DNA of 64,000 nucleotides from Bacteroidales bacterium (GTDB taxonomy: Bacteria > Bacteroidota > Bacteroidia > Bacteroidales > G3-4614), in NCBI GenBank assembly GCA_017935575.1, contig JAGBHI010000050.1, forward strand, positions 1 to 64,000, given 5' to 3'. Position 1 is the first letter of the stretch, and every line of letters begins with the position of its first letter. This document shows positions 294 to 49,858 of the stretch, one piece after another. The notes under the pieces were generated by a model. The model was not told where the DNA came from, made no database searches, and saw only the letters and a program-made list of their open reading frames with translations. A program made the translations under genes and the position numbers.

Positions 294-3200
294 ATGAAAA
301 AAGGATTACTAATTGCAGCATTAGGCACACTATTGCCAATGTTTGTTTATTCGCAGTCATGTCCTCAGCACGAACAATATGTTAAAATAGGTTCGGAAAC
401 AGTAAATTGGGGAGATGCATATGCTGCGTGGTCTCCAGGTAGAGCTTTTTATCAAGGTCTTGATACAGAGGCAGAGGAGAATGAAAATTTTAACATTTCT
501 CGTGTAAAACCACGTAAAAGATTTACCAATCCACAAACACAAGTTCGTCCCACACAAAATTCACTGCGTAAACTTTTGTGGTGGTGCCCAATAGGAGGAG
601 ATGGTTGGAATGCTTTGCCATCATACTATTTTGGAGGTGAACTTTGGACCATGTGGAGCTATACAGATATATACGGAAACTGGACAGCTCCGTTTGTAAG
701 TGTGCCAGCACCTATGCTTGACGTATGTCACAAAAACGGAGTGCAAATTTCTTGTCTTGCGGCAGTTCCTTGGGCTGCCAACATCTATTGTACAGACACA
801 AGCGGACACGGATATTATCTAAATAAATTAGTAGGAGATGCAGGAGGTTCAGAAAAATTCTTGAAATATTTAAAATATTATGGAATTGACGGAATAGGAT
901 TTAACTCAGAGTTCAGTTGGAGAGGGACATTGAGTGGTTCAGGTCCATACACGGGACTTGCATTCCATACAGCTATGAAAAAGTTCTTAGGCGACTGTTA
1001 TACAAAAGCAGCCGATTATGAAGTTCCATTTCACAACTGTTGGTATTCATTAACCAATAACTCGGGATTCTGTGGTGGTTCGTCTGCATTGAACGAAAAT
1101 AACAAAGATTGGTTCGATTATGAAGGAAAAAAAACATCAACAGCATACTTTACAAACTATTATGCAGCACCTTCATATTCACAAACATGTGTTGAAACAT
1201 ATTTTCCCAATCGTTCATCATACGACGTATATATGGGAGTTGACTACCAAGCAGGATACTCATTGCAAAACTGGTTGGTATTACCTAACTATGATATATC
1301 ATTAGGATTGTGGGGAGCACATAACCGCAATATGATATATGAGCAACGAGGAGAGAGAGGGTCAACGCCACTTCAAATGCAGCAAACATATTTGAAAATA
1401 ATGGAGAATGTATTTACAGGTTCAAGCAAGAACCCTGTAAATCCACCAGCAATGTCAGAGACAACCAAATTTAATTCAACAGCAGAAGATGCTTGGGGTT
1501 GGGCACAATTGATAACTGCACGCAGTACATTGATGTGTCAAGATGGCGGTGATTTGTCAACCGATCCTTTTGTGACAAACTTCAATTTGGGTAACGGATT
1601 CTTCTTTAATATAGAGGGAAAACGTCATGCAGATACAGAGTGGTATAACTTAGGAGTACAAGATTTCTTGCCCACATGGCGCTGGTGGTTTACCAATACA
1701 TATATGGGAAGAACAGATGCAGAGGTAAGTGCCGATTTAAATGCTGAATTTACATGGGACGATGCATGGTTTGGAGGTTCATGTTTACAAGTGTCAGGAC
1801 AAACAGATTTGACATATTTACAACTATTCAAAACCAAATACGATGTTAAAGCAAATGACTATTTGACAATCAGATATAAATTTGTATCAGGAACAGGAAC
1901 ATTATCATGGGCATGTTCGGCATGGGAAACAGAATCTACTCTTATAGAAAAGGAGATAAAGGGTGGAACTCCCGACGAAAATGGTTGGATAACAGTAGAG
2001 ACACAAGTAGGAGGTCGCTCTGGAATAAAACTTAATGATAAAGTATTAGCACAATTAGGTTTGAAATTCAAAAACACAAGCGATGATTTCAAGGTATTAA
2101 TAGGTCAAATATCATTGACAAGAGGTAAAGTTGGTAAATCAAACAAACCAGCAACACCAACAATAGAGAAATCTCGTATGATGTCACGTAACTACAAAGG
2201 TGTTGACATGAAGATAATCTACAATATGGAGTCTGCATATGCAGGAGAAGAGAAAGAGTTATGGGAGCCCATCTATAATAATGAAGTAGAGACTTCATAT
2301 TTCCGTATCTACACACAACAAGAGGGAGAAGAAGCAAAAGTGTTTACTGCAACAACTTCGTGGGCAGCATATGTAGTTGCAGCACCCTATGATGCGGTAA
2401 AAGGAGGAGGTTTGCGTATAGGAGTATCAGCAGTAAGTTTAGATTATGAAACTGAATCAGAGATAGCTTGGAGCGATTTCTTCTATCCCACAACAATTGA
2501 TCCTATAATTGAGGAGGGAACAGAGATTGACAAACCTATAATCAAAGTAAATGAAGAGTTTACTTTGAAATATACCGACCCCAACCACCCTGCAGCAACA
2601 TGGGAGGTTATAAACTCGTTGACAGGAGCATCTATTAAGACATTTGCTAATACAACATCAATAACAATGTCGTTGCCAACAATAGGATCATACGATATTA
2701 AAATTACTAATGCAGACGGAACAGTTGCATATACAAGAGGTATTATACAAATTTCTCCTGATGAAACAGGAGCAATACCTATTATTGGATCATTAACAGC
2801 AGATAAGACAAGTGTATATCCCGAAGAGAATATAACATTAACTACAACAACATCACGTCTTGGAGAGGGATCTGTATCGCGAGCAGTAAAAATAGAAGAT
2901 CCCAATTTGTTACGTTTCCCTGCACTTGTACAATCTCGTCCATATACATATATGATGTGGTTTAAGGCTGAAAAGCTTACACACAATAATCAAGGAACTA
3001 ACTTGATTGATAAACGCAATATGGACGATACATGGCCTCATAATAACTGGGGAGATTTCTGGGTTACAATACGCCCGGAGATGTCTGCAAATAAAGAGGT
3101 TGGAGGAAGTACATATTCAGACAGAGTACACCCTGCTGATGAGATATCATTCAATACATATGGTTGGACAGAACATGATGTCCCCAATAGTAATATGATG

Positions 3201-42007: not shown

Positions 42008-42919
42008 ATGAGAAAACTATATACATATCCGGCAAAACCATTTGTTAAATGGGTAGGGGGTAAAACGCAACTTCTTGACGATATAAAGAAGGCTTTGCCT
42101 CGTAATTTATCACAGATAAATGATGTGACTTATATTGAGCCATTTGTTGGTGGAGGAGCTGTTTTATTTTGGATTTTGCAAGAATATCCGAATATAACTA
42201 AAGCTATAATCAATGATATAAATGAAGAATTAATTTGTACTTATCGTGTAATAAAATCAGATGTTGAAAAATTGATTCTTGAGTTGACACGAATTCAAGC
42301 TGAATACCTTGCACTGAATGACGTTGCAAGAAAAGATTATTTTTTATCACAACGTGAACGTTATAATGAAAAAAATAATTCAGATATTGAAACTGCTGCA
42401 TTATTTATTTTCTTGAATCGAACTTGCTTTAATGGATTGTACCGTGTAAATTCTAAAGGAAAGTTTAATGTCCCACACGGAAGATATACGAATCCTAAAA
42501 TTTGTGATGAAGAAACGTTGAGAGCTGATTCTGTTGTTCTACAACGAGTTGAGATTCTTTGTGGTGATTTTGCACAAACTGGTAAATATGCAGATAATAA
42601 TGTCTTGTATTATTTTGATCCACCATATCGTCCTTTAACAGAGACTTCTGCATTTATTTCTTATGCAAAAGATGGTTTTGATGACGCTGAACAGACACGT
42701 TTACGCGATTTTTGCGAGCAGATAGCAGCACACAAATCTTTATTTGTGGCAAGTAATTCAGACCCTCAAAATGTAGATAATGGAGATGATTTTTTTGATC
42801 ATCTTTACAAAAGATTCTCAATTAAACGAGTTTTTGCTGCGAGGATGATAAATTCAAAAGGAAATGGGCGTGGAGCGATTTCCGAAATAATGATTTCTAA
42901 TGTTGCCAATGCTTACTGA
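42008..42919 (+). CDS. DNA adenine methylase, DpnM/Dam type (GATC)
   Basis: Class alpha N6-adenine methyltransferase of 303 residues. Motif X/I region FVKWVGGKTQLL, EPFVGGGAVLF (SAM-binding motif I) and catalytic motif IV D204-P-P-Y are all present. Similarity of arrangement to the DpnII system predicts methylation of GATC on double-stranded DNA, protecting host DNA from the nuclease encoded next. It is preceded by a strong Shine-Dalgarno site and an unusual control region. The nuclease gene overlaps its end. Specificity is inferred from the partner nuclease. Confidence 0.92.
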   Translation: MRKLYTYPAKPFVKWVGGKTQLLDDIKKALPRNLSQINDVTYIEPFVGGGAVLFWILQEYPNITKAIINDINEELICTYRVIKSDVEKLILELTRIQAEYLALNDVARKDYFLSQRERYNEKNNSDIETAALFIFLNRTCFNGLYRVNSKGKFNVPHGRYTNPKICDEETLRADSVVLQRVEILCGDFAQTGKYADNNVLYYFDPPYRPLTETSAFISYAKDGFDDAEQTRLRDFCEQIAAHKSLFVASNSDPQNVDNGDDFFDHLYKRFSIKRVFAARMINSKGNGRGAISEIMISNVANAY

Positions 42920-43778
42920 TATGAGAGACTTTGATACATGGCTAGCTGGTTTTAGACCTTCTATAGCTGATTATAAATATTACGTTGATTTCGATAAGGT
43001 TTTCAATAATGTGGAAGCTATTAAAATTCCACTCAATATTTTGAATTCGCTTATAGGTTCCAAGAATATAGAAAATGAATTCAGAAATATTTTGGAACAA
43101 TATCCAGAAACTCTAAGATGTATTCCTATTCTTTTGGCCAAGCGTGAACTTGACATTATGGCTATGGATGAAGAGGGGCAGATTGATTTTCATTTTGACA
43201 AGCCCAATTGCACGAATGAAGATTATGTCAAATTCATGCGAAAGACTGGTCTTTTTGATTTGATGGAGAGTCATATTGTCAACAATCTTGTAGATTACGT
43301 GACGGGTATAGAAACAGGACTAGACTCAAATGGACGTAAGAATCGAGGTGGTCATCTTATGGAGAATCTTGTAGAGGGCTTTCTTTGTAAAGCTGGACTT
43401 GTGAAAGGTGTTGATTATTTCAAGGAAATGTATATTCATGAAATTGAGGCCAAATGGGGAATAGATCTGTCTTTGATCTCCAATAATGGTGGTGCAGAGA
43501 AAAGATTTGATTTTGTGGTAAAAGGAAATGATACCATTTATGGAATAGAAACTAACTTTTATACCAGTAGTGGTTCCAAATTGAATGAAACGGCACGTAG
43601 TTACAAAACTATTACCATGGAAACCAAAGATTTGGGATATTTTAAATTTGTTTGGTTCACCGATGGTTGTGGCTGGCGCAGTGCAAAGAATAATTTGAAA
43701 GAAACCTTTGATGTGTTGGAACACCTTTATAATATTGCGGATCTTGAAAATGGAATAATTCCAAAAGTTCTTATCTAA
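42900..43778 (+). CDS. Type II restriction endonuclease, DpnII family (GATC)
   Basis: Cuts unmethylated GATC. The protein resembles DpnII along its length: FRPSIADYKYYVDF near the start, NILNSLIGSKNIE, NLVDYVTGIETGLDSNGRKNR, and GSKLNETARSYK near the end. Probable nuclease residues are in FDFVVKG and the GIETNFY strand. The 292-residue form begins at 42900, inside the end of dam; ATGs at 42909 and 42921 are also possible, the last directly after the dam stop. Expression after the methylase is the usual safe order. The second methylase starts directly at its stop. Confidence 0.93.
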   Translation: MLPMLTDMRDFDTWLAGFRPSIADYKYYVDFDKVFNNVEAIKIPLNILNSLIGSKNIENEFRNILEQYPETLRCIPILLAKRELDIMAMDEEGQIDFHFDKPNCTNEDYVKFMRKTGLFDLMESHIVNNLVDYVTGIETGLDSNGRKNRGGHLMENLVEGFLCKAGLVKGVDYFKEMYIHEIEAKWGIDLSLISNNGGAEKRFDFVVKGNDTIYGIETNFYTSSGSKLNETARSYKTITMETKDLGYFKFVWFTDGCGWRSAKNNLKETFDVLEHLYNIADLENGIIPKVLI

Positions 43779-44660
43779 ATGCCAACATCCTATTATAAGT
43801 CAGAGAACAAGGATTTTACCCTTTTGAAAGGAGATTGTATCGAACTGTTGAATTCATTTGATTTTAAGTTCGATATGATTTTTGCTGACCCTCCTTATCA
43901 TCTTTCCAATGGAGGAATCAGTGTTCAAAACGGTAAAATGGTATCTGTCAATAAGGGCGATTGGGACAAGTCCAATGGATACGAGGAAGATTACCTGTTT
44001 GATAAATCTTGGATTTCTGCTTGCCGGAATAAGTTGAAATCCAATGGAACGATTTGGATAAGTGGTACTTATCATAATATTTTTTCGGTAGCTAGATGCC
44101 TAACAGAATTGGGCTTTAAGATATTGAACTGCATTACGTGGGAGAAAACAAATCCTCCCCCAAATTTATCTTGTAAATATTTCACCTATTCTGCTGAGTA
44201 TATCCTTTGGGCTCGTAAAGAGCCCAAAGTTCCCCATCTCTTCAATTATGAGTTAATGAAAAAGATCAATGGAGGAACTCAGATGCGTGATGTTTGGCGA
44301 TTACCAGCTATTGCACGATGGGAAAAGTCTTGTGGTAAACATCCTACTCAAAAACCATTGTGCGTTCTGTCACGAATCATTCAGGCTTCAACTCTTCCTG
44401 ATGCATGGATTTTAGACCCATTTACAGGTAGTAGTACAACAGGTATTGCTGCAAACCTATTAGGTCGTCGTTTTCTTGGAATAGATCAAAATGGCGAATT
44501 TTTGGACCTGAGTAAAGCCCGCCGAGAGGAAATCAACGACATCTCAAAACGTACTTTGTATTTGGAGAAACTTCAAAAGCAAGCTCAAATATTTGAAGAT
44601 AATGAGATTCAAGCTATTAATGAACCTTCTGTAGAATATGGGATGGACTTACCGTTTTAA
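43779..44660 (+). CDS. DNA adenine methylase, DpnA type (second methylase of the system)
   Basis: Beta-class N6-adenine methyltransferase of 293 residues: motif IV D37-P-P-Y comes first (FADPPYHLS), and the SAM motif I is near the C-terminus (DPFTGSSTTGIAA), with HPTQKPL between, as in M.DpnIIB (DpnA). DpnA methylates GATC in single-stranded as well as double-stranded DNA, which protects incoming DNA during transformation; that role is known for the pneumococcal enzyme and inferred here. It abuts the nuclease gene with no gap. The operon order is methylase 1, nuclease, methylase 2; DpnII of pneumococcus has the order M, A, B. Confidence 0.93.
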   Translation: MPTSYYKSENKDFTLLKGDCIELLNSFDFKFDMIFADPPYHLSNGGISVQNGKMVSVNKGDWDKSNGYEEDYLFDKSWISACRNKLKSNGTIWISGTYHNIFSVARCLTELGFKILNCITWEKTNPPPNLSCKYFTYSAEYILWARKEPKVPHLFNYELMKKINGGTQMRDVWRLPAIARWEKSCGKHPTQKPLCVLSRIIQASTLPDAWILDPFTGSSTTGIAANLLGRRFLGIDQNGEFLDLSKARREEINDISKRTLYLEKLQKQAQIFEDNEIQAINEPSVEYGMDLPF

Positions 44661-44662
44661 TT

Positions 44663-45199
44663 TTAATTCCAGATATTACATAGTTTATTATATAACATAG
44701 ATCTTCCGCTTCGATTCCAATATGTTATATCCTGTTCTATGAAAAGCCATTTTAATGACTTGAAGATAACCTCTATAGAGTGTCCAGATGTAAATGAAAA
44801 TTGGAAATATTCAGAATCATTGATCTGTTTACAAGCGAAAGTCTTATCCAACAGCCCTTTTAAACGAGAAAATTCAGTAGAATTTTCAGCTTTTTTATTG
44901 ATTAAATCATTTGTTATATCATCATGGCTTGGACGATTCCCAGTTGAAATGATATTACCATGCTTTCCATATCTAAATTGTGTGTTCTCAACTCTAACTT
45001 CAAAATCAACACCTTTATTTAGGGCTGTAGGACGTTTAAGATAAATGCGTTTATTATTTTGCAGTGTTTCTACAAAGTAGTAATATTCTGTAACCGAAGT
45101 AGTTGTACCGGGCATTTCTTTTAAAAACTCTTCAATAAGTTGTTTTCGGTAAGAAGCCTTATCCGCAGCGGTAATATTAAGTGTTATATTCGTAGCCAT
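44663..45199 (-). CDS. Unknown protein, convergent with the DpnII operon
   Basis: I do not recognise this 178-residue protein. It has no signal peptide or membrane segment. Visible features: a YYYFVETLQNNKRIYLKRPTALNKGVDFEVRVE segment (here in part: YLKRPTALNKGVDFEV), which looks beta-rich and could be a nucleic-acid-binding or nuclease-like core, and a C-terminal IEQDITYWNRSGRSML. It lies 1 bp after the XRE regulator gene on the same strand and is transcribed toward the second methylase, whose stop is 2 bp from its own. The tight fit suggests one functional unit with the restriction system, for example a modulator. Confidence 0.6.
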   Translation of the reverse strand: MATNITLNITAADKASYRKQLIEEFLKEMPGTTTSVTEYYYFVETLQNNKRIYLKRPTALNKGVDFEVRVENTQFRYGKHGNIISTGNRPSHDDITNDLINKKAENSTEFSRLKGLLDKTFACKQINDSEYFQFSFTSGHSIEVIFKSLKWLFIEQDITYWNRSGRSMLYNKLCNIWN

Positions 45200-45200
45200 A

Positions 45201-45416
45201 TTATTGTTGAAAAAGTTCTTGTATCTGAATATTTAGTGCTTTAGCAATTTTTTCTATATTACAGAGTGTGATATTCTTCTCTGCACGTTCAATCATTCCT
45301 ATATATGTGCGATGTACTCCAGCTAACTCTGCAAGTTTTTCTTGAGATAGTCCTTGGCTTATTCTATGCTGCTGTACATTCTTGCCAAATAGGAGTAGAA
45401 TGGGTTCTTTATTCAT
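45201..45416 (-). CDS. Small XRE-family DNA-binding protein (possible RM controller)
   Basis: A 71-residue protein that is essentially one helix-turn-helix domain: QHRISQGLSQEKLAELAGVHRTYIGMIERAEKNIT carries the helices (key: LSQEKLAELAGV and TYIGMIER). Size and makeup match controller (C) proteins of type II restriction systems, which time nuclease expression. It sits 1 bp before the unknown 178-aa gene and has its own promoter. Whether it binds the direct repeats before dam or the inverted repeat near 45527-45555 is open. Confidence 0.8.
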   Translation of the reverse strand: MNKEPILLLFGKNVQQHRISQGLSQEKLAELAGVHRTYIGMIERAEKNITLCNIEKIAKALNIQIQELFQQ

Positions 45417-45740: not shown

Positions 45741-45863
45741 ATGAAGAAATTTCAAAAGCCCCAATTGGTAGCTCAAGGTTCTGCACAAATGGCGGATTGC
45801 CGACCAAATAGCAGACCGTGTGGTAGACCATGCAACCCTCCTGGACCTGGAGGACATCGCTAA
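45741..45863 (+). CDS. RiPP precursor peptide (Cys/Arg/Pro/Gly-rich core)
   Basis: A 40-codon gene, too short for most gene callers, that looks like the substrate of the radical SAM enzyme after it. The leader (residues 1-16, MKKFQKPQLVAQGSAQ) contains F4-x-x-P7-x-L9-x-x-x-G13, the pattern known from lasso-peptide and other RRE-bound leaders (Y-x-x-P-x-L-x-x-x-G). The tail begins at C20 and follows a four-residue period, RPNS, RPCG, RPCN, PPGP, ending GGHR, with cysteines C20, C27 and C31. The peptide has no signal sequence. The radical SAM gene with an N-terminal PqqD-like domain starts 53 bp downstream. The modified positions are probably in the Cys/Arg-Pro core; chemistry is unknown. Confidence 0.75.
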   Translation: MKKFQKPQLVAQGSAQMADCRPNSRPCGRPCNPPGPGGHR

Positions 45864-45867
45864 ACCG

Positions 45868-45901
45868 TATATCAGATGGTGGTAACACATCATCTGATAT
45901 A
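45868..45901 (+). terminator. Hairpin between precursor and maturase (attenuator)
   Basis: A perfect 11-bp stem (45868-45878 with 45891-45901), extendable to about 14 bp inside with one G-U pair, followed by TTAATTTTAT. It lies between the precursor stop and the maturase start. Partial termination here would give more precursor than enzyme mRNA, as seen in many RiPP operons. Confidence 0.6.
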
Positions 45902-45916
45902 TTAATTTTATCGTTT

Positions 45917-47359
45917 ATGAAGTATTTTAGAATAAATCAACAAGTTCTTTTTCGCCACTTTGGAGATTTCGGTTATATAACAGATAATAGAAATTTTGGT
46001 TATAACCTACCAGGAAATGATTTTATTCTTGGTGATGAAATTATTTCTGAAACTGGAGCCGATATTATATCTTGTTTAGAAAAGACTCCTCTTTCAATTG
46101 ATGAAATAATTCATAGAGTTATTGAAATTTTTGAACCAGAAGAGTGTCTGCGGTCTAATGTCATTGAATTTTTAGAACTTTTGTGTTCTAAAGGTTTTAT
46201 TCTTAGTGGAGAGTCTATTGAGGAATGTATGAATTGTAGTGCTATCATTAGAAATGATAGTCAAAGAGTAGTAGAGGCAGATTCAAGTACTATTGATACT
46301 CAAACATTTTTATCAGAACATTATGGAGATCGACCATTTCCTACAAGTATTCATGTTGAAATAGCAAGTGAATGTAATGAACGATGTGTTCATTGTTATA
46401 TTCCACATGAATTTAAGCAAGATTTGATTGATGAAAACTTATTCGATTCAATACTCAGCCAAGCTGTAGGATTAAAATTACTGCATATTACAATAAGCGG
46501 TGGAGAACCTATGCTTCATCCTCATTTTATTGATTTTATGAGAAAATGCAGAGAAGCAGATATGTCCGTTAATATTCTTTCTAATCTTACATTACTCAAT
46601 GATGAGATGATTGAGGAAATGAAGTTGAATCCATTGCTTAGTGTTCAGACTTCTATTTATTCAATGCAAGCGAATATCCATGATGGTATAACTCATCAGA
46701 AAGGAAGTTTATCTAAAACTGTTGCCTCGGTTATTAAACTGATAGAAAATCATATTCCTATTCAAATAAGCTGTCCTGTAATTAAAAATAATGTTGATTC
46801 ATATCAAGGAGTTAAGGAATGGGCTACAAAACTAAAAATATCTGTAGGCATTGATTACTCAATTATAGCGCAATATAATCATAACAAAAGAAATATAAAT
46901 TGTAGATTATCAGCAGAAGATTTAAAAAATGTTATATCCAAGCAGTTTGGAAGTGACCCGATGTTTCGAGAAGAGACAGAAAAGGAAATAACTGAAAGAA
47001 GAAAAAAGACTAACAATGATTACATTTGTAGTGTATGTAATTCTTCTATTTGTATTGGAGCAAATGGGGATGTCTTTCCTTGTGTTGGATGGTCAAGTAA
47101 GATTCTAGGTAATATTAAGTCTCAGAGTCTTCAGGATGTATGGATGAGGTCAGAGACAGTAAAGGATTTGAGAAAAATTAAGTTTGGAGATTTCATTAAT
47201 TGCAAAAATTGTAGTTCAAAAGATTTTTGTACCATTTGTATGGTAAGGAATTCAAATGAAAGTTCTTCTAGCAATCCATTTGAGTTGAGTCGGTATTTTT
47301 GTGATATGGCAAAAATTAAAAAGGATATCTACAATGATTATTGGAAAAACAATAAGTGA
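45917..47359 (+). CDS. Radical SAM/SPASM peptide maturase with N-terminal RRE (PqqD-like) domain
   Basis: Predicted RiPP-modifying enzyme of 480 residues. Residues 1-105 resemble a PqqD-type RiPP recognition element (DEIISETGADIISCLEK, then a helical wing ending LLCSKGFILSG). The radical SAM core follows with the 4Fe-4S cysteines C153, C157 and C160 (CNERCVHC) and SAM motif ITISGGEPMLHP. The C-terminus is a SPASM domain: C371-x-x-C374, GANGDVFPC and CKNCSSKDFCTIC, enough for two auxiliary clusters. The start at 45917 avoids overlapping the hairpin and precursor; a longer in-frame form from 45830 would. Such enzymes form thioether or C-C crosslinks in peptides; which applies here is open. Confidence 0.9.
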   Translation: MKYFRINQQVLFRHFGDFGYITDNRNFGYNLPGNDFILGDEIISETGADIISCLEKTPLSIDEIIHRVIEIFEPEECLRSNVIEFLELLCSKGFILSGESIEECMNCSAIIRNDSQRVVEADSSTIDTQTFLSEHYGDRPFPTSIHVEIASECNERCVHCYIPHEFKQDLIDENLFDSILSQAVGLKLLHITISGGEPMLHPHFIDFMRKCREADMSVNILSNLTLLNDEMIEEMKLNPLLSVQTSIYSMQANIHDGITHQKGSLSKTVASVIKLIENHIPIQISCPVIKNNVDSYQGVKEWATKLKISVGIDYSIIAQYNHNKRNINCRLSAEDLKNVISKQFGSDPMFREETEKEITERRKKTNNDYICSVCNSSICIGANGDVFPCVGWSSKILGNIKSQSLQDVWMRSETVKDLRKIKFGDFINCKNCSSKDFCTICMVRNSNESSSSNPFELSRYFCDMAKIKKDIYNDYWKNNK

Positions 47360-49624: not shown

Positions 49625-49637
49625 CTTGAAATTTTAG

Positions 49638-49711
49638 AGCCTCTTGTCGGATTCGAACCAACGACCCCGAGATTACAAATCACGTGCTCTGGCCAACTGA
49701 GCTAAAGAGGC
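49638..49711 (-). tRNA. tRNA-Thr (TGT), copy 1
   Basis: A 74-nt cloverleaf on the minus strand. Acceptor GCCTCTT pairs with AAGAGGC; the D-arm stem is GCTC/GAGC; the anticodon loop TTTGTAA gives TGT (reads ACA, threonine); the T-arm is GTTGG TTCGAAT CCGAC; discriminator base T. CCA is not encoded. The anticodon stem CGTGA/TCTCG has a T-T mismatch at pair 29-41. It differs from copy 2 at two positions. Confidence 0.93.
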
Positions 49712-49730
49712 AAAAATATTTCAAAAATTA

Positions 49731-49748
49731 AAAACTCTTATGAGTTTT
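49731..49748 (-). terminator. Hairpin between the two tRNA-Thr genes
   Basis: AAAACTC TTAT GAGTTTT on the plus strand. On the minus strand it is followed within a few bases by TAATTTTTG, so it may terminate transcripts ending with copy 2 or guide tRNA processing. Confidence 0.4.
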
Positions 49749-49784
49749 GTTTAAATGGTGCAATCAACATTATCACCTTTTTAG

Positions 49785-49858
49785 AGCCTCTTGTCGGATT
49801 CGAACCAACGACCCCGAGATTACAAATCACTTGCTCTGACCAACTGAGCTAAAGAGGC
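49785..49858 (-). tRNA. tRNA-Thr (TGT), copy 2
   Basis: A second 74-nt tRNA with the same anticodon TGT, 73 bp upstream (in transcription) of copy 1. The two differ at a D-loop base (T for C) and at position 27 (A for C). The latter changes the first anticodon-stem pair to A-G, so together with the shared T-T at 29-41 this copy has two unpaired positions in a five-pair stem. CCA is not encoded. Its 5' end is only 4 nt from the SRP RNA. Confidence 0.9.

Follow-up and report, generated by a model that had tools for sequence, protein, structure and literature searches.

A putative mobile two-gene cassette of a new radical SAM RiPP family with a nearly invariant Cys/Arg/Pro core

In radical SAM RiPPs, the core usually varies and the genes are accompanied by those for transporters, proteases and immunity. 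A fixed core beside a diverged enzyme is a pattern known for cofactor-type RiPPs. A described system of direct relevance is the streptide pair SuiB/SuiA, in which the enzyme makes a Lys-Trp C-C link. The RRE domains of the PqqD group favour leaders of the W/Y/LxxP type (PMC12710340). A very small gene set has been described as radical SAM 'Cluster 59': a recombinase, a radical SAM enzyme and a peptide with up to six repeats of an Asp-Cys motif (PMC9062424). Here, a 20-residue core is preserved nearly letter for letter across several phyla next to an enzyme whose identity has fallen to about 40%, and nothing else is retained.

The locus was found in a stretch of 64,000 nucleotides from a Bacteroidales bacterium, in the following called the window. 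A short gene encoding the peptide MKKFQKPQLVAQGSAQMADCRPNSRPCGRPCNPPGPGGHR precedes that of a radical SAM enzyme (Table 1). The original prediction had proposed a 40-codon gene at 45741, followed after 53 bp by the enzyme; the ORF coordinates bear out both. The precursor family had not been recognised, and indeed the peptide has no family match among the Pfam and NCBIfam models.

Table 1. Coordinates of the features discussed in the text
Feature	Sequence	Coordinates	Strand	Remarks
Precursor peptide gene	window	45741..45863	+	40 codons, 40 aa
Precursor regions	window precursor	leader about 1-18; core from about Cys20		leader F/Y-x-K-P-x-L; Cys/Arg/Pro core
RNA hairpin	window	45867..45902	+	15 bp stem, -20.6 kcal/mol, between precursor and maturase
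Maturase	window	45917..47359	+	ATG 45917, stop 47359, 480 aa
Maturase regions	window maturase	about 1-100; about 140-300; about 371-465		RRE (PqqD-like); radical SAM core; SPASM, two auxiliary Fe-S clusters
DpnII-type restriction-modification system	window	42008-44660		complete: D12 methyltransferase, DpnII endonuclease, N6/N4 methylase
178-aa protein and 71-aa HTH_3 regulator	window	44663-45416	-	adjacent genes, between restriction system and cassette
tRNA-Thr (TGT) genes	window	49637-49858	-	tandem pair just past umuDC
Five radical-SAM-like genes	L129 (contig C81, 4-20 kb), same genome	4010-10187	-	consecutive, with CxxxCxxC
TPR protein	L020	7570-8454		
TPR protein	L023	7580-9376		
TPR protein	L031	7499-9031		
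TPR protein	L032	7500-9017		
TPR protein	L042	2229-2852		
Sister locus	L008	1247-2919 and 2920-3618		amidohydrolase-like gene directly after
Sister locus	L055	5796-7440		
Cassette with broken maturase frame	L048	2413-4037		precursor intact

A PqqD-like N-terminus, a CxxxCxxC motif and a Cys-rich SPASM tail had been read from the enzyme sequence, and Pfam scores and cysteine conservation agree with all three. PqqD (PF05402) matches residues 44-95 with 29.6 bits (cut-off 23.4), Radical_SAM (PF04055) residues 149-293 with 60.0 bits and SPASM (PF13186) residues 371-432 with 38.1 bits, the latter two also above their cut-offs. C153-x3-C157-x2-C160 is present. Little or no change is seen across 40 relatives in the SPASM cysteines 379, 389, 429, 432, 438, 441 and 462. 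An AlphaFold model (pLDDT 88, pTM 0.88; run without plasmid-derived rows) superposes on SuiB over residues 3-464 (5v1t, Foldseek E 2.8e-18) at an identity of about 16%. Over the catalytic part it superposes on CteB (5wgg, Z 27.0), SkfB (6efn, Z 23.9), ChlB and anSME. The modelled fold speaks for a peptide maturase guided by an RRE and equipped with two auxiliary clusters; the chemistry is not given by the fold.

Can the enzyme be assigned to a described family? Against the NCBIfam radical SAM families it has many weak matches, the best with 83 bits against cut-offs of at least 180. The PapB equivalog (NF047865) was rejected at 56.6 bits against a cut-off of 340, and the sactipeptide maturases AlbA, SkfB and StsB at 59.1 of 850, 49.5 of 300 and 64.7 of 625 bits. 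PqqE (68.0 of 381 bits) and the mycofactocin maturase (69.5 of 265 bits) fare no better, and the Tyr is absent from the core. Since no model matches the precursors and the maturase stays far below every cut-off, a named NCBIfam family for the pair was rejected. Because no curated thioether-family cut-off is passed, the chemistry is not transferable by homology. Aromatic cyclophane or streptide chemistry on the core was likewise rejected: W, Y and F are absent from all 27 distinct cores examined, and SuiB-type aromatic crosslinks on the core are therefore excluded. Elsewhere in the window's own genome a cluster of five radical-SAM-like genes has no obvious precursor peptide; two of the five encode short, similar enzymes of 308-311 aa.

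The original prediction had suggested looking for a short gene upstream of homologous maturases. It is present in 46 of 47 loci, encodes 33-41 aa, usually lies 45-126 nt 5' of the maturase, and has a conserved leader and core. The sole exception is the Acerihabitans relative (L036), where a recognisable precursor is absent. A dN/dS near 1 is not seen. The precursor is under purifying selection (pS 0.47, pN 0.06, ratio 0.12, pooled over 14 pairs) and synonymous sites diverge. The recurrence and this ratio mark a real gene pair rather than a chance ORF. The consensus is M-x-Y-x-K-P-x-[IV]-L-A-Q-S-T-x-x-M-A-E-C-R-P-N-S-K-P-S-G-R-P-C-N-P-P-G-P-G-G-R, with a nearly invariant 20-residue core, C-R-P-N-S-[KR]-P-[SC]-G-R-P-C-N-P-P-G-P-x-G-R. 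Ten residues never change in 40 distinct DNA versions: P7, A18, C20, P22, N23, P26, G28, R29, P30 and C31.

These alignments correct the picture gained from the window alone. Its leader had been described as F4-x-x-P7-x-L9-x-x-x-G13. P7 is indeed invariant and position 9 is [ILV]; Gly13 is not a family feature (30 of 40 distinct precursors have Ser there), and at position 4 Tyr stands in place of Phe in 37 of the 40, so that the family position is Y and the leader pattern reads Y-x-[KRT]-P-x-[ILV]-[LV]-A-[QK]. The four-residue period of the tail is real and conserved, its family form being RPNS / KPSG / RPCN / PPGP. Three Cys had been counted in the tail. Two of them, Cys20 and Cys31, are family-wide and invariant in 40/40 distinct canonical precursors; the third, Cys27, is Ser in 33/40 and does not characterise the family. 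Ser27 to Cys marks the small clade of the window in the tree (L017, L018, L056), and Cys at this position also occurs in L019, L054 and L048. In the last locus, a metagenome bin, frameshifts break the maturase frame, either by decay or by assembly error.

The core varies in a few loci. Its first half is shortened in L041 and L027 (C-NSKPSGRPC, C-SPKPSGRPC), and L046 has the variant CGGGKQCGRPCSKKA. In two sister loci, L008 and L055, the leader, the gap with its hairpin and the maturase type are retained, and the core is another Cys-containing one (GSFAAGCP...WCRQC and GSYAAGCP...YCRSC types). Such an exchange of the core with leader and enzyme retained is as expected for leader-guided enzymes. 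A related enzyme on a Thiodictyon plasmid (L015) lies with a second radical SAM gene and amidohydrolase, YcaO and TfuA genes.

The linked, conserved short gene, the domains and the fold support the RiPP reading with which the analysis started, and the enzyme very probably modifies the peptide. We assign a probability of about 0.58 to the following: the pair is a minimal mobile two-gene cassette of a new radical SAM RiPP family, with thioethers on the two invariant cysteines as the most likely modification. The N-terminal RRE of the maturase would bind the precursor leader Y-x-[KR]-P-x-[IL]. The radical SAM centre would take a hydrogen from a core residue and the SPASM clusters would help to modify the 20-residue core. 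Most likely the Cys20 and Cys31 thiolates would react with it, forming one or more thioethers to carbons of nearby residues, in a ranthipeptide- or sactipeptide-like fashion. An additional link from Cys27 is possible in the clade of the window. Host functions would remove the leader and take care of any export, or the product may act within the cell.

The same cassette may carry out another chemistry, a possibility which we regard as real and still rather doubtful. Arg, Lys, Asn, Pro or Ser would be altered by C-C or C-N links, epimerisation or oxidation, and the cysteines would serve for metal binding or a disulfide. Pro22, Asn23, Pro26, Gly28, Arg29 and Pro30 are as invariant as both cysteines, and SPASM enzymes of the same fold include the C-C crosslinker SuiB. 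Yet the core lacks an aromatic residue, and the sister families with different cores (L008, L055, L046) share mainly Cys. A new crosslink chemistry on Cys/Arg/Pro without aromatics would be of interest to enzymologists.

The distribution of the cassette is wide and thin. Maturase relatives at 40-80% identity occur in Bacteroidota, Bacillota, Thermodesulfobacteriota, Spirochaetota, Deferribacterota and Pseudomonadota. An alignment-based scan of 84,980 genomes yielded 39 loci, which lie in these six phyla and in a Parcubacteria bin. The carriers include isolates (Segatella buccae, Dysgonomonas capnocytophagoides, Pectobacterium peruviense, Acerihabitans) and complete plasmids; many others are metagenome bins, whose short contigs are open to misassignment. 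Viral contigs contributed two further full-length maturase relatives. Prevalence is low throughout, the window's own genome being counted each time: a relative at E 1e-30 in 4/198 genomes of an order-level set, mostly of the same order; 6/393 genomes of the order, including one with the sister type and its other core; and 2/395 genomes in a draw from the phylum. A second genome set, taken as an independent hold-out and rejected as such, has the precursor in four loci as well, with peptides matching those of earlier loci, probably from the same species. A tblastn search for orphan precursors in phage and plasmid collections with the 38-aa peptide gave zero matches and missed even the known carrier plasmids, in keeping with the low power of so short a query.

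Several observations point to mobility. In the tree, phyla are mixed on well supported branches; Peptococcaceae group with Desulfatitalea, in a group which also holds Parabacteroides. A relative is also present on conjugative plasmids of E. coli, Salmonella and Photobacterium (about 41% identity, 98% of the length). On the IncF plasmids of E. coli and Salmonella the pair is flanked by a serine recombinase gene and its second, partial copy (75-88% identical), and in Photobacterium another recombinase lies upstream. The three gamma-proteobacterial settings have a stretch of DNA in common which begins close to a promoter-like TTGACT box, includes precursor and hairpin and ends at the maturase start. 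Judged by these sequence comparisons, the cassette looks to have spread between bacteria as a mobile two-gene unit, which would move as about 1.7 kb, a promoter of its own and the internal hairpin included. One contig of 5520 bp (L047) has a terminal overlap of 162 nt with the cassette across its ends, so that either a small circular element or an artefact of assembly may lie behind it; a PADLOC PDC-S21 candidate defence gene is found on it as well. Since E. coli and Salmonella plasmids carry it, the cassette, which needs only two genes and whose short peptide has a known sequence, is testable at once in a laboratory strain.

Clustering of the ORFs around the 47 loci leaves the pair alone as widely conserved. 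Exporter and protease genes had been reported missing beside the window's pair; none is widely conserved beside it over the 47 loci, nor is an immunity gene. Recombinases, integrases and a TPR protein recur, in five loci each. The TPR protein was rejected as a conserved operon partner: it lies directly downstream in five Bacteroidota loci, 106, 125, 59, 63 and 90 bp after the maturase, and is absent elsewhere. In three loci it has a further C-terminal domain, DUF2971-like by eye. For this Bacteroidota subset a role as receptor or effector partner is conceivable. In about 15 loci, restriction-modification, TIR, AbiL-like or type IV restriction genes (PADLOC hits) are found no more than 6 kb from the cassette, and the DpnII system of the window is placed likewise; the control was small (88 ORFs of random same-order regions) and had PADLOC hits too, and the comparison is not a significance test. 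The link of nearby restriction and abortive-infection genes to the cassette is a lead, suggestive only. In the window, DpnII-type genes, an HTH gene and the cassette form an accessory block (41.8-47.6 kb), and in same-genus genomes its left flank and its umuDC right flank are found elsewhere or beside other genes. The 178-aa protein has no family match and is possibly, with its HTH_3 neighbour, a regulatory or toxin-antitoxin-like two-gene unit.

What would such a peptide do? The fixed core argues for one constant product and against an arms-race bacteriocin. Together with the missing export and protease genes it makes a constant product, active within the cell or leaving it by general routes, the likelier case. 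Tentatively, and with less conviction than for the chemical alternative, one may think of a fixed-product RiPP acting inside its producer, a self-sufficient two-gene module that is mobile in the manner of toxin or defence cassettes. Examples would be a crosslinked Arg-Pro peptide directed at a universal cytoplasmic target (the ribosome, an invading phage), or a peptide cofactor serving many phyla. An ordinary secreted bacteriocin-type RiPP, with genes for export, cleavage and immunity elsewhere, appears improbable: a cleavage motif of the double-glycine type is absent from the leader, only the pair is widely conserved in the neighbourhood, and a core so little changed across phyla is not what arms-race peptides show, although a small, cationic, Cys/Pro-rich peptide which is plasmid-borne in Enterobacteriaceae would suit that role.

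The hairpin between the two genes is a further constant. Its z is -5.6 in the window, and from -3.3 to -6.5 in 10/10 loci folded against shuffles; all 41 folded gaps reach -15.9 kcal/mol or better. The sequence of the stem varies between clades. In gamma-proteobacteria a T run follows, resembling a partial terminator. Probably the hairpin is an attenuator or an mRNA-protecting stem which provides precursor in excess of enzyme. Hairpins between precursor and enzyme genes are common in RiPP operons, and PPGP-type stretches can slow ribosomes. That the short ORF is a cis-acting leader peptide, whose Pro-rich end and hairpin control a single downstream radical SAM enzyme with another substrate, would agree with these features and is nevertheless most improbable, for a PqqD-type RRE in the enzyme is matched by the Y-x-x-P leader of the peptide, codons vary freely while amino acids do not, sister loci swap the whole core and keep the leader, and such hairpins are ordinary in RiPP operons.

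Beyond the original prediction, the analysis adds the cross-phylum distribution, the mobility and the conserved hairpin. In the literature searched, no paper contains the core motif and none describes the family; what is covered of a Bacteroidales RiPP survey (PMC10352776) concerns other clusters, and the 2026 NCBIfam covers neither precursor nor enzyme with a model. RiPPs of the RRE-radical SAM-SPASM kind are known; of this family, with its near-invariant core and its existence as a minimal mobile cassette, that literature appears to contain no description. It looks like a family of overlooked modified peptides which likely has an important job.

How, then, does the cassette compare with the known systems? 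With SuiB/SuiA it shares the RRE-radical SAM-SPASM architecture, the best full-length fold match and the short precursor beside the enzyme; it differs in its core free of Trp, Tyr and Phe. The fold of the catalytic part, a Cys-containing core and RRE guidance, here predicted, are common to the cassette and CteB, PapB, SkfB and AlbA. Ranthipeptide and sactipeptide maturases differ nonetheless: the cassette enzyme is far below their curated cut-offs, the core sequence is unrelated, and the thioethers are here a proposal. The copies on E. coli plasmids resemble 'Cluster 59' as a minimal pair of peptide and radical SAM enzyme with an adjoining recombinase, but Asp-Cys repeats there stand against a unique R-P-x-x core here (PMC9062424). 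PQQ and mycofactocin are alike in PqqD-type leader recognition, here predicted, and in one nearly invariant core across phyla. Both, however, use a core Tyr, which is absent here, and the cassette is patchy, mobile and free of further pathway genes. With a fixed core and a diverged enzyme it follows the pattern of the cofactor-type RiPPs, and it is unlike them in being rare, patchy and mobile.
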